Shown here piece after piece: positions 26,624 through 30,491 of a stretch of 64,000 bases of DNA (its first letter is position 1; every line of letters begins with the position of its first letter). The notes under the pieces were generated by a model. It did not search any database and was not told the origin of the DNA. It saw nothing but the letters and a program-made list of their open reading frames with translations. Where the stretch lies: assembly GCF_000204645.1 (NCBI RefSeq), contig NC_015422.1, positions 2,931,001 to 2,995,000 on the forward strand. Direction: 5' to 3'. The position numbers and the translations under genes are program-made. This DNA comes from Alicycliphilus denitrificans K601 (GTDB lineage: Bacteria > Pseudomonadota > Gammaproteobacteria > Burkholderiales > Burkholderiaceae_C).

Positions 26624-27214
26624 CTACGCTGCAGTCGCCGCTGCATCCGCCGCGGGCTTGGCCCCGGGCTTCTTGCGCGCCGGCGCGATCATCATGATCA
26701 TCTGGCGGCCTTCGAGCTTGGGGAACTGCTCCACCTGGATGCTGTCGGCCAGCTCGTCGCGCAGGCGGTTGAGCAGGGCCAGGCCCAGTTCCTGGTGCGT
26801 GATCTCGCGGCCGCGAAAGCGCAGCGTGACCTTCACCTTGTCGCCATCGGCCAGGAAGCGGCGGATGTTGCGCAGCTTGATGTTGTAGTCGCCATCGTCC
26901 GTACCGGGGCGGAACTTGACTTCCTTGATGTCGATGACCGTCTGCTTGGCCTTGGCCTCGGCAGCCTTCTTCTGTTCCTGGTACTTGAACTTGCCGTAGT
27001 CCATCAACCGGCACACCGGCGGGTTGGCCGTGGCGGCGATCTCCACCAGGTCCACGTCCAATTCGCCCGCCATGCGCAGAGCCTCTTGCAGGCTGACGAT
27101 GCCCAGGGGTTCGTTGTCAGGGCCGGACAGGCGCACTTCGGGCGCCATGATTTCCCGGTTCAGGCGGTGCTTGCGCTCCTCGCGCTGGCGACGGTCACGA
27201 AATTCAGTAGCGAT
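26624..27214 (-). CDS. infC: Translation initiation factor IF-3, probable ATC start
   Basis: 196 aa from 27214. The N-domain ([14 protein letters not shown] ... [10 protein letters not shown]) and C-domain ([20 protein letters not shown]) of IF-3 are complete; the C-terminal tail is Ala/Lys rich. There is no in-frame ATG before MAPEV. The codon ATC at 27214 follows AAGGTGAG by 4 nt and opens the conserved [13 protein letters not shown] (27229) and GTG (27223) are the alternatives. IF-3 genes often use rare AUU/AUC starts because IF-3 discriminates against them, giving autoregulation. Confidence 0.93.
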
Positions 27215-27301: not shown

Positions 27302-29221
27302 TCAGGCTTTGGAGGCGATGTCCCGTGCGATCAGTTCGACAAAGGCGTCGAGGGACATCACACCCAGGTCTTTATTGCCCCGGGCGCGCACTGCGACGGC
27401 TCCGGCCGCCTTTTCCTTGTCGCCCGCGACCAGGATATAGGGCAGCTTTTGCAACGCATGCTCGCGTATTTTATACGTAATCTTTTCGTTACGCAGATCC
27501 TGGACCACCCTAAGATCTTGATGCGGCAGCGCTTTCTGCAGCTTTGCGGCAATTTCGCGACAGTAGTCGCTCTGCGCGTCGGTGATGTTGAGCACCGCCA
27601 CCTGCACCGGCGCCAGCCACACCGGCAGCGCGCCCGCGTGCTGCTCGATCAGGATGCCGATGAAGCGCTCGAGCGAACCGACGATGGCCCGGTGCAGCAT
27701 CACCGGGCGGTGGCGGCCGCCGTCCTCGCCCACGTATTCGGCGTCCAGCCGCTCGGGCATCGAGAAATCCACCTGGATGGTGCCGCACTGCCAGTGGCGG
27801 CCGATCGCGTCCTTGAGCGTGTACTCGATCTTGGGGCCGTAGAACGCGCCCTCGCCGGGCGAGATCTCGAAGTCGCAGCCCGAGGCCTTCAGGCTCTCGA
27901 TGAGCGCCGCCTCGGCCTTGTCCCAGATCTCGTCCGAACCGATGCGCGCGTCGGGCCGCGTGGCGACCTTGTAGACGATGTCGGTGAAGCCGAAGTCCTG
28001 GTAGACCCTCTGCAGGAGCCGCGTGAACGCCAGCACCTCGTGCTGGATCTGGTCCTCGGTGCAGAAGATGTGGCCGTCGTCCTGCGTGAAGCCGCGCACG
28101 CGCATGATGCCGTGCAGGCCGCCCGTGGGCTCGTTGCGGTGGCACTGGCCGAACTCGCCGTAGCGCAGCGGCAGGTCGCGGTAGCTCTTGATGCCCTGCT
28201 TGAAGATCAGGATGTGGCCCGGGCAGTTCATCGGCTTGAGCGCATAGTCGCGCTTCTCGCTCTCGGTGACGAACATGTTCTCGCGGTACTTGTCCCAGTG
28301 GCCGGTCTTCTCCCACAGGCTCTTGTCGAGGATCTGCGGGGCCTTGACCTCCTGGTAGCCGTTGTCGCGGTACACGCGGCGCATGTACTGCTCCACCTCC
28401 TGCCACAGCGTCCAGCCCTTGGGATGCCAGAACACCGTGCCGGGCGAATGCTCGTCGATGTGGAACAGGTCGAGCTCGCGGCCCAGGCGACGGTGGTCGC
28501 GCTTTTCCGCCTCTTCCAGCATGTGCAGGTACTGGTTCAGCTCATCCTTGGTGGCCCAGGCCGTACCGTAGACGCGCTGCAGCATCTCATTGCGATGGTC
28601 GCCGCGCCAGTAGGCGCCGGCCACCTTCATCAGCTTGAAGAACTTCAGCTTGCCGGTGCTGGGCACGTGCGGGCCGCGGCACAGGTCCTCGAAGCCCCCC
28701 TCGCGGTACAGGCTCACGTCCTCGTTGCTCGGGATGCTGGCGATGATCTCGGCCTTGTAGTGCTCGCCCAGGCCCTTGAAGTACGCCACGGCCTCGTCGC
28801 GCGGCAGCACGCGGCGCACCACGGGTTCGTCCTTGGCGGCGAGCTCCATCATGCGCTTCTCGATCGCCACCAGATCCTCGGGCGTGAACGGGCGCTTGTA
28901 GGCGAAGTCGTAGTAGAAGCCGTTCTCGATCACCGGGCCGATGGTCACCTGCGCGTCAGGGAACAGCTCCTTGACGGCGTAGGCCAGCAGGTGGGCTGTG
29001 GAGTGGCGGATCACCTCCAGGCCCTCGGGATCCTTGGCCGTGACGATGCTCAAGGGGCTGTCCTGCGTGATCCGGTAGCTGGTATCGACGACCTTGTCGC
29101 CGATCTTGCCCGCCAGCGCGGCCTTGGCCAAGCCGGAGCCGATCGAAGCGGCCACATCGGCCACCGTCACCGGGCCGGGAAACTCGCGCCGGGAACCGTC
29201 GGGGAGCGTGATCTGAAGCAT
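27302..29221 (-). CDS. thrS: Threonyl-tRNA synthetase
   Basis: 639 aa. TGS domain at the N-terminus ([20 protein letters not shown]), editing domain with HSTAHLL, class II catalytic core with NCPGH (zinc and motif region), motif 2 [19 protein letters not shown] area and motif 3 [10 protein letters not shown], then the anticodon-binding domain. The ATG at 29221 gives the conserved start. The upstream 185 nt contain a Thr-rich leader ORF and a terminator, implying threonine-responsive attenuation. infC begins 87 bp downstream. Confidence 0.98.
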
Positions 29222-29278
29222 GGTGTGCAAATCCTTGTGAACTGAAAGAGGTACGGTGCGCGCTCCCGGCCCCAAAGC

Positions 29279-29307
29279 AAAAAGCGCGGAACACAGTCCG
29301 CGCTTTT
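29279..29307 (-). terminator. Intrinsic terminator in the thrS leader (attenuator)
   Basis: On the minus strand GCGCGGA, loop CTGTGT, TCCGCGC, then TTTTTG; with flanking A/T the stem is 11 bp and perfect. It lies 58 nt before the thrS ATG, so it would stop transcription before the gene unless its 5' arm is captured by an upstream segment. Confidence 0.8.
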
Positions 29308-29338
29308 CGAGGGTGGGGGAGAAAGTGGTCTCGTGCAG

Positions 29339-29365
29339 GCGCGAACGGCCAGCCTCAACGGCTGG
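29339..29365 (-). promoter_or_regulatory. Competing leader hairpin and antiterminator segment of thrS
   Basis: CCAGCC/GGCTGG (29349-29365) can form a hairpin across the leader-peptide stop codon. The next segment, TTCGCGC (29339-29345), can pair over 7 bp (one G-T) with GCGCGGA, the 5' arm of the terminator, forming an alternative structure. This is the classical four-segment attenuator layout. Confidence 0.55.
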
Positions 29366-29405
29366 TGAAGGTCTCCATCGTAGTTCGCGGTGTCATAACC
29401 GACAT
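29355..29405 (-). CDS. Threonine-rich leader peptide of thrS
   Basis: 16-codon [19 protein letters not shown] (or 13 codons from the second ATG at 29396), five Thr codons using four different triplets. A GGGCGAG stretch precedes the first ATG by 7 nt. It starts about 30 nt after a -10-like TAGAAT (29441-29446) and ends 47 nt before the terminator. Stalling at Thr codons when charged tRNA-Thr is scarce would favour antitermination and raise ThrS. The remainder of the gap 29222-29579 shows no gene. Confidence 0.65.
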
Positions 29406-29579
29406 TGCCTTTCTCGCCCTTGTGTCTTGCAAAAGTTCGGATTCTACCCTGTGCCGACGCAAAAACCCCGGAGCCTGCGCCCAGGGCCGTGAGCGCCCTG
29501 CGCGAGATCAGTGGAACGGATCTTCGCAGCCGCCCCATGCGCTCATGCGCGATCTGCAGCAGTGGCGCAGCGCACCAAC

Positions 29580-30491
29580 CTACAGGTGGAAATCGCCCGC
29601 TGCTTCCGGCTGATAAAGCACCTTCCTGATCCGGATATGGCAGGTTCGGTTCGGACTCCGCCAGTCGAAGGCATCGCCCTCCTTGTAGCCCAGGATCGCG
29701 GTGCCGATGCCGGAGCAAACCGATAGCTTCTCGACACCGCCGTCCGCATCCTCTGGGTAAACCAGCGCAACTTGCACCTCCTCGTTGCCCACCTCCAGCA
29801 AGGCCTTGGAGTTCATCGTGACGACATCCTCCGCCACTTGCCGTGGATCGACGACGACGGCTCGCTCGATCTCGTGCTCCAGCTCAAAAATATCCGAGCC
29901 CTGTTCGAGCTCGATCAGGCTCCTGAGCCGGGCCTTGTCGATTTCGGTGATGTAGATGACGGAGGTATGAGCCGCAGGGCTTTCGCGCAAGAGCCGGAGA
30001 TAGCGCTCCGAGTTGATGGCAAAAGACTTCATCGCGGGCGTTTCGCTTTCCAGCAGGAAGCCGCTGCGCAGAAAAGCATTCAGCGACCGCGCGTTGTCTG
30101 GGTGGATTTTGGCGATGAGCTTCTCGGCCCGCATGTCGAAGAAGGCGAGTTTCATGCCTTCGCGAATCGCGCTTGCTCCGAGCTTGCGGCCCCAGTTGTC
30201 GCGGTTGCCAATGACCAGGACCATTTCGCAGTCCGGGCCCTTCTTGACGAGACGCACGAAGCCCACTGGCACGTCATGCCGGTCGTAGGCCATGAAGAAC
30301 CGGCCGCCTTGGTTGAATAGATGGGTCAGGATCGGCAACTGGATCCGACCGATGGCCTGCTCAATGGACCGGGAGACATGGCGCGAGTCTCTCAGGTAGC
30401 GCGTGACGGCCTCATCTTCCAACCAGTCCATCAGAGTCAGCGCGTTTGCCCGGGTGATCTCGGGACACAGGGAAATGAAAGGCTTGTTCAT
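29580..30491 (-). CDS. GNAT acetyltransferase fused to a GreA/Rnk-type C-terminal domain
   Basis: 303 aa with two domains. Residues about 1-150 form a GNAT fold (LMDWLEDEAVTRYL, acetyl-CoA loop region NRDNWGRKLGASAIREGM, KIHPDNARSLNAFLRSGF). Residues about 170-303 match Rnk/GreA-B C-terminal domains, with VVTMNSKALLEVG and the FKBP-like end GDAFDWRSPN. Rnk binds RNA polymerase near the secondary channel, so the acetyltransferase may be brought to transcription complexes. The ATG at 30491 is preferred, 3 nt after GGGGTG; a TTG seven codons upstream is possible. Confidence 0.85.
   Translation of the reverse strand: MNKPFISLCPEITRANALTLMDWLEDEAVTRYLRDSRHVSRSIEQAIGRIQLPILTHLFNQGGRFFMAYDRHDVPVGFVRLVKKGPDCEMVLVIGNRDNWGRKLGASAIREGMKLAFFDMRAEKLIAKIHPDNARSLNAFLRSGFLLESETPAMKSFAINSERYLRLLRESPAAHTSVIYITEIDKARLRSLIELEQGSDIFELEHEIERAVVVDPRQVAEDVVTMNSKALLEVGNEEVQVALVYPEDADGGVEKLSVCSGIGTAILGYKEGDAFDWRSPNRTCHIRIRKVLYQPEAAGDFHL

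Follow-up and report, generated by a model that had tools for sequence, protein, structure and literature searches.

The gene for threonyl-tRNA synthetase, thrS, in the 64,000-nucleotide stretch of DNA analysed here (the window) is very probably controlled by a ribosome-mediated transcription attenuator that senses charged tRNA-Thr. The parts of its leader, their conservation and their pairing logic are the product of computation, and from these we infer a transcription start, translation of the leader ORF, stalling of the ribosome and a response to threonine. The leader is real, and its interpretation is well supported as far as computation goes. Its features, with the evidence for each, are as follows.

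29446-29441, minus strand: -10-like hexamer TAGAAT (sequence; recurrence of TANAAT in relatives)
29408..29415, minus strand: Shine-Dalgarno-like GAGAAAGG of the leader ORF (sequence; recurrence in the thinned leaders)
29355..29396, minus strand: leader ORF of 13 codons plus TGA, with five Thr codons (conserved start; in-frame Thr enrichment)
29383..29389, minus strand: segment 1, CGCGAAC, which lies within the leader ORF (from folding the window in stages)
29349..29365, minus strand: hairpin CCAGCC-GTTGA-GGCTGG spanning the stop codon (sequence; compensatory changes counted jointly with the terminator)
29365-29360 and 29354-29349, minus strand: arms of that hairpin, CCAGCC and GGCTGG respectively (sequence)
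29357-29355, minus strand: leader stop codon TGA (sequence)
29339..29346, minus strand: segment 2, GTTCGCGC, containing TTCGCGC (29345-29339) and partly covered by a ribosome that stands at the stop codon
29297..29303, minus strand: segment 3, GCGCGGA, both the antiterminator partner of segment 2 and the 5' arm of the terminator
29279..29307, minus strand: intrinsic terminator AAAAGCGCGGA-CTGTGT-TCCGCGC-TTTTT, that is, 3:4 plus the U run (sequence; recurrence before thrS)
29290-29284, minus strand: segment 4, TCCGCGC, the 3' arm of the terminator (sequence)
29283-29279, minus strand: the five T of the terminator (sequence)
27302..29221, minus strand: thrS, threonyl-tRNA synthetase, the regulated gene (ATG at 29221, 58 nt past the T run)

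The first-pass annotation of this DNA had built its case on the TAGAAT hexamer, the stop hairpin, TTCGCGC, the GCGCGGA terminator, the T run and the 58-nt gap before the gene, and each of these is present at the position it had been assigned. The leader RNA is predicted, from the placing of the hexamer, to start near 29434, about 7 nt downstream of TAGAAT, and 175 nt separate the start of the leader ORF from that of thrS. To judge by the usual operon order and the translations in the window, thrS is presumably followed by infC, rpmI, rplT, pheS and pheT. The start of infC is probably ATC (IATEFR...) at 27212-27214, after AAGGTGAG, where the ORF list gives TTG 27229; ATC is a rare start codon, like those of other infC genes.

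The leader ORF and its distribution

Leaders were recognised by the 21-mer GGTTATGACACCGCGAACTAC with up to five substitutions. Removal of five rows not linked to thrS (L062 and L234-L237) from 212 left 207 leaders, a set that includes repeated loci; 198 are distinct over 150 nt and 144 remained after thinning. By tblastn, 205 of the 207 were verified as lying upstream of ThrS coding sequence. Exact copies of the 21-mer were found in at least 119 named genome stretches. In 117 of them tblastn places ThrS coding sequence downstream on the same strand, no more than 420 nt away; the loci of the other two (L137 and L139) are too short to tell. Acidovorax, Comamonas, Variovorax, Rhodoferax, Polaromonas and Roseateles are represented among the matches listed, together with Massilia, Janthinobacterium, Herbaspirillum, Cupriavidus and others, and it is from these named exact-match records that the order was judged to be Burkholderiales. 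Within two mismatches, the 21-mer was found in none of 365 genomes of the wider class outside the order.

The first sample anchored on thrS comprised 59 genomes and 58 upstream regions, G013 being excluded as having no true thrS. At up to five substitutions the leader was present in 30 of 34 relatives of the same family and in three of 24 from other families, one of these 24 regions (L048) being shortened by a contig end. Across the 33 leaders so obtained, the 18 positions GGTTATGACACCGCGAAC are each 90-100% identical, and most flanking positions are below 70%, except for the Shine-Dalgarno-like stretch and the next three bases. The same-family relatives without the leader are L012, L014, L022 and L028. 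Upstream of thrS, L014 (genome G024) keeps a terminator-like, T-rich TGCGCGG...TGCGC without the leader ORF, which is perhaps, on its sequence, the remnant of a decayed attenuator.

A pattern search through the order matched in 69 of 399 genomes, and only thrS-linked matches were used because a reversed control pattern also matched scattered genomes. The order-wide sample consisted of 130 genomes, 128 of them with thrS, and yielded 127 upstream regions from 50 families; the census omits G094 (partial hit) and G109 and G143 (no hit), and the thrS start finder was weak (motif score <3) in 28 of the 127 regions. Here 17 of 127 genomes have a leader resembling the 21-mer, and 37 have a mini-ORF that encodes Arg-Thr within its first ten codons, compared with four in a reverse-strand control. 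The union of both criteria places related leaders in 39 of 127 genomes and 20 of 50 families, and the other 88 genomes show neither. A second thrS-like gene, at 56-58% identity, was seen in three of the 130 genomes (G066:C5, G111:C13 and G151:C15, with upstream regions L343-L345).

The annotation had read a 16-codon ORF with five Thr from the ATG at 29405. That ORF is present, but the widely conserved start is the ATG at 29396, which gives 13 codons. An ATG at the 29405 position occurs in all seven loci of the window's genus (L001-L006 and L058) and in 12 of 144 thinned leaders, and was rejected as the general leader start since it is a genus-level feature. The ATG at 29396, within GGTTATG, is present in 144 of 144, this ATG being part of the search pattern, and the last 18 nt before GGTTATG contain AAAGG in 120 and GAGAAAGG in 90 of 143 thinned leaders. 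The N-terminal MTPRT is strongly conserved, ATGACACCGCGAAC being kept in 193 of 207 leaders. Leaders of the same build that lack CGA also occur: families f3 and f23 have MTPLT, MRPPTT and MVPPTTT, and L087 and L088 (genomes of f10) have MTPLTT.

Threonine codons set the leader frame apart beyond the conserved start. Past codon 6 there are 1.21 Thr per 8 codons in this frame, versus 0.20 and 0.28 in the other two, and it stops early, a median of 7 codons past codon 6, where the other frames mostly continue. Thr stands at position 2 in 140 and at position 5 in all 144 leaders, both being inside the search pattern, at position 6 in 116 of 144, and frequently at codons 7-9 and 11, past the core; the stop codon is TAG in 80 of 144. 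The conserved Thr codons are ACA and ACT, which account for 4.9% and 3.3% respectively of all Thr codons across 30 of the window's long ORFs. What is found ahead of thrS in the window is, in short, the translated-looking ORF expected of an attenuator, with five cognate Thr codons out of 13. The annotation had held that a lack of conservation among relatives would speak against its reading; the Thr-rich ORF is conserved among them, start and Thr codons included.

Upstream of the ORF, 120 of 204 leaders have a TANAAT no more than 90 nt away, versus 268 of 13192 background stretches of 90 nt, and 47 of its occurrences are spaced at 45-46 nt, the spacing in the window being 46. No clear -35 box is visible upstream of the leader, and a consensus scan of 29000-29700 called neither a promoter nor a terminator by its rules. 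In 83 of 127 genomes (41 of 50 families), the 420 nt upstream of thrS contain a tRNA-Val(GAC) gene in the same orientation as thrS. In the window's genome this tRNA gene is found elsewhere (C1:3752449), so the leader there probably has its own promoter.

Pairing alternatives and the position of the ribosome

A hairpin followed by a T run is present between the ORF and thrS in all 206 testable leaders (L139, whose locus ends, was left out), with a median end 49 nt before thrS. In shuffled leaders the same finder returned any hit in 83 of 432 cases and reached the real score in one of 432. Covariation was counted in an alignment (A1) of 44 leaders hand-picked from the 143 length-filtered thinned leaders, from which other builds (such as the Massilia type) were left out and to which the structures of the window's sequence were applied. 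When terminator and stop hairpin are counted as one, 29 cells differ on both sides of the pair (0 of 500 shuffles), further pair types not being above shuffles (360 of 500); 95.1% of cells are paired in the terminator and 67.1% in the stop hairpin, of whose six pairs five have a both-side change. Antiterminator 2:3 pairs in 80.2% of cells with weak covariation, its score being reached by 21 of 500 shuffles and one pair having a double change. Pairing 1:2 is possible in 76.0% of cells, and cannot covary because segment 1 hardly varies.

Duplex energies, which separated poorly from shuffled spacers (rank <=0.05 in about 31% of leaders for 2:3 and 25% for 1:2, n=144), were discarded and ungapped complementarity was used in their place. 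By this measure 2:3 beats shuffled spacers at p<=0.05 in 42 of 144 leaders (Fisher p about 5e-27, relatedness ignored) and 1:2 in 35 of 144 (combined p about 2e-10, relatedness again ignored). In the order-wide sample, where 33 leaders were tested and one more was too short, 2:3 complementarity is supported (combined p 1.3e-4) and 1:2 pairing is unsupported (Fisher p 0.39). Segments 2 and 3 differ between leaders yet remain complementary, for instance GTTCGCGC/GCGCGGAC and CTAGTCG/CGGCTAG. Base by base, in the 87 of 144 leaders with both motifs, an A after GCGG in segment 3 is matched by T opposite in segment 2 in 24 of 24, a C by G in 26 of 48, and a T by G in seven of 15 and by A in one. Segment 2 as located via segment 1 is the same as that located via segment 3 in 71 of 144 leaders (15.2 expected), a coincidence favoured by the shared CGCG. 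Swapping segment 1 variants (CGA, CTG, CCG, CCA and CGG) between leaders gave no support for 1:2 covariation, a leader's own partner being best in 50 of 133.

Folded as a single sequence, the leader of the window fares only slightly better than its shuffled versions (z -1.85; 9 of 200 shuffles did as well). Within this fold, CTTTCTC at 29319-29325 can pair with the Shine-Dalgarno GAGAAAG at 29409-29415, and a similar CTTTTCTC is kept in some close relatives and not in others.

Staged folding of the window, in which the masked ribosome lengths are assumed values, gives a different outcome for each position of the ribosome. When the ribosome is absent, P(1:2)=0.98 and P(2:3)=0.001; when it is stalled at codon 2, 5/6, 9 or 11 and segment 4 has yet to be made, P(2:3)=0.96-0.97; once it is at the stop codon, P(3:4)=0.98. 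A ribosome-dependent antiterminator 2:3, mutually exclusive with the terminator, is accordingly what the folding model predicts. At full-length equilibrium the terminator of the window prevails even when a ribosome is stalled, which means that switching has to be kinetic, as it is in classical attenuators. Over 144 leaders, the mean probability that the 5' arm of the terminator is held upstream is 0.86 with the ribosome stalled at codon 5, 0.60 with no ribosome, 0.58 once it has reached the stop (n=143) and 0.75 after shuffling of the spacer; the stalled value exceeds that without a ribosome in 119 of 144, that at the stop in 129 of 143 and that of the shuffled spacer in 115 of 144. In 115 of 144 leaders, versus 67.5 expected, segment 2 overlaps the stretch that a terminating ribosome would cover, taken as 3 nt before to 16 nt after the first base of the stop codon, and in 98.6% it is located 15 nt or more past codon 5.

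We would therefore picture control of thrS in the following way. RNA polymerase would start near 29434 and a ribosome would begin the 13-codon leader; were it to reach the stop codon, the terminator would form. When Thr-tRNA is scarce, the ribosome would stall on a Thr codon and leave segment 2 free for segment 3 as it emerges, and the 2:3 pairing would bring the terminator too late, so that thrS is transcribed. In the window, absence of a ribosome would permit 1:2 pairing and lead to termination.

Among the elements of the first-pass annotation, the terminator is kept in 206 of 206 testable leaders, with compensatory changes in terminator and stop hairpin together. Its TTCGCGC/GCGCGGA antiterminator finds backing in pairing above shuffles and in sequences that have diverged yet stay complementary, with weak column covariation. 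Its overall reading, ribosome-mediated attenuation, is supported by the conserved parts, by staged folding and by the placing of segment 2 at the stop codon.

Other accounts of the same sequences have to be weighed against attenuation. The conserved 21-mer might mainly be an RNA element bound by protein, for example by threonyl-tRNA synthetase in a feedback like that of E. coli, with the mini-ORF secondary. In keeping with such an element, ATGACACCGCGAAC is more conserved than coding for the peptide requires, third codon positions included, and CGAAC(T/G) recurs over 19 families without consistent pairing. We nevertheless consider it unlikely, given that Thr is enriched in one frame only, that the core remains in frame despite a distance from the start varying from 3 to 8 codons, and that segment 2 is tied to the stop codon. 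It is very unlikely, in our estimation, that the leader is constitutive and sets a basal level of thrS by coupling or constant partial termination with no sensing of threonine: a terminator between ORF and gene in every testable leader, the frequency of Thr at codons 7-9 and 11 beyond the core, and a pairing logic that varies with ribosome position all argue for regulation, even though some relatives lack Thr past the core (MTPRTCFFLR and MTPRTFLLKR) and conservation by itself is no proof of it.

The terminator might, lastly, merely end an upstream transcription unit, with the leader ORF a chance ORF. The same-strand tRNA-Val(GAC) genes upstream of thrS in 83 of 127 genomes, several with a terminator directly after them, lend themselves to this account, which we find scarcely credible in view of the recurrence of the ORF and its start in 198 distinct leaders and of the -10-like box that stands at a preferred distance just upstream of the ORF.

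The CGA-AC(T/G) core

In the order-wide census an in-frame CGA-AC(T/G) core, encoding Arg-Thr, is present in 34 of the 39 leader genomes. CGA is the Arg codon in 34 of 39 Arg-Thr ORFs, versus 7.9% of 3457 Arg codons in related thrS genes, and 6.0% of Arg codons in 30 long ORFs of the window; the Thr codon that follows is ACT in 29 and ACG in eight of 39, against a background of 46% ACC, 41% ACG and 8% ACT. The five Arg-Thr ORFs without CGA look like chance ORFs, and one of them adjoins a CGA leader in G047. The 34 ORFs with CGA come from 34 genomes and 19 families, and 22 of them, from 13 families, do not start MTPRT (for example MSFRTTTTGTLNLG, MFKRTTTTRISR, MAVRTTTTHP, MQLNRTTTTS and MGFRTCTQDSMHRV). 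The core stays in frame as Arg-Thr at 3 to 8 codons from the start codon, and 34 of the 44 CGAAC(G/T) hexamers in these regions are the in-frame core. In eight of the 39 ORFs the codon after Arg-Thr is TGC (Cys), several of these ORFs being poor in Thr (for example MTLRTCTKH and MFRTCSLALYC); such leaders might conceivably sense cysteine as well.

Pairing with segment 2 as the sole reason for keeping CGAAC was dropped as an explanation: pairing 1:2 is unsupported order-wide, and so does not explain the retention of CGA. The tRNA-Arg anticodons of the window's genome, according to ARAGORN applied to 48 places found with Rfam tRNA, are CCG, TCT, ACG and CCT; none of the 48 is tRNA-Arg(TCG), although the absence of tRNA-Ile(GAT) as well shows the list to be incomplete. 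Only tRNA-Arg(ACG), presumably ICG, was found able to read CGA in this genome. CGA would be read by inosine, and slowly. Pairing of I with A in the ribosomal P site could delay decoding of the Thr codon that follows, turning the ribosome into a more sensitive gauge of Thr-tRNA. We put forward tentatively, as a possibility on the doubtful side, that CGA-AC(T/G) is a working part of the leader throughout the order, acting either through such a P-site pause that sharpens the gauge or as a CGAAC recognition element at the nucleotide level; if so, it would be an order-wide design rule under either reading. We know of no classical attenuator with an in-frame dicodon of this kind before its control codons. 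The core touches on the general question of how a leader ribosome comes to respond to a single amino acid, and is the part of the system that could prove new.

Comparison with known systems

Like the E. coli thr operon leader (Rfam Thr_leader) and the trp, his, leu and phe attenuators, the leader described here has an ORF with cognate codons, an antiterminator/terminator alternative and an intrinsic terminator. Unlike the E. coli thr leader it controls a synthetase gene, thrS, and not a biosynthetic operon, and it has a conserved N-terminal MTPRT. No Rfam family matches the leader. The Rfam Thr_leader covariance model has no match in the window or in 29200-29520, the T-box model has none at the gathering threshold in the window and none at E<=5 in 29200-29520, and a permissive Rfam search returned three weak matches only, far below gathering scores; with no model match, membership of the T-box and Thr_leader families was rejected.

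In E. coli, thrS is under translational feedback through an operator, and in Firmicutes it is under T-box control, in both cases according to ThrRS or tRNA-Thr. The E. coli operator consists of hairpins that bind ThrRS, mimic tRNA-Thr and overlap the ribosome-binding site of thrS. To our knowledge neither the operator nor the T-box uses a leader peptide. In the sampled Burkholderiales this essential gene appears to be under a third mode of control, leader-peptide attenuation, in 20 of 50 families. Because MTPRT, with which the leader begins, is easily searched for in any genome, the switch can be readily annotated.

A Thr leader peptide for thrS in betaproteobacteria had been described by the first-pass annotation as unfamiliar. 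A betaproteobacterial case was indeed not found in titles and abstract openings, nor in passages of PMC2965389, PMC3766115, PMC4833913 and PMC10272879; an earlier prediction may stand in Vitreschak 2004 or Lopatovskaya 2010, which these papers cite. A figure in PMC2965389 ranks many attenuated gene families, and betaproteobacterial thrS could be among them. The idea of a Thr leader before thrS is not itself new, however, a thrL-thrS leader having already been predicted in Streptomyces lividans TK24, according to excerpts of PMC8079986.

In codon usage, the eight ACC codons of the E. coli thr leader, as given in passages of PMC1183508 that treat codon choice together with the stop codon in attenuation, may be set beside the conserved ACA and ACT found here. 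The S. lividans thrL-thrS arrangement is alike in placing a short ORF with Thr codons, proposed as an attenuator, upstream of thrS; it differs in belonging to another phylum and in its peptide, MKRVRPFLETTPGFVPAR, which has two Thr, and its termination is described as unclear, there being a hairpin and no U-rich stretch (PMC8079986, in excerpt). Attenuators of synthetase genes are likewise described, in the part of PMC1262725 seen, for pheST of gammaproteobacteria and for trpS and leuS of Streptomyces, and these share with the thrS leader the control of a synthetase by a leader peptide, for other amino acids and in other lineages.
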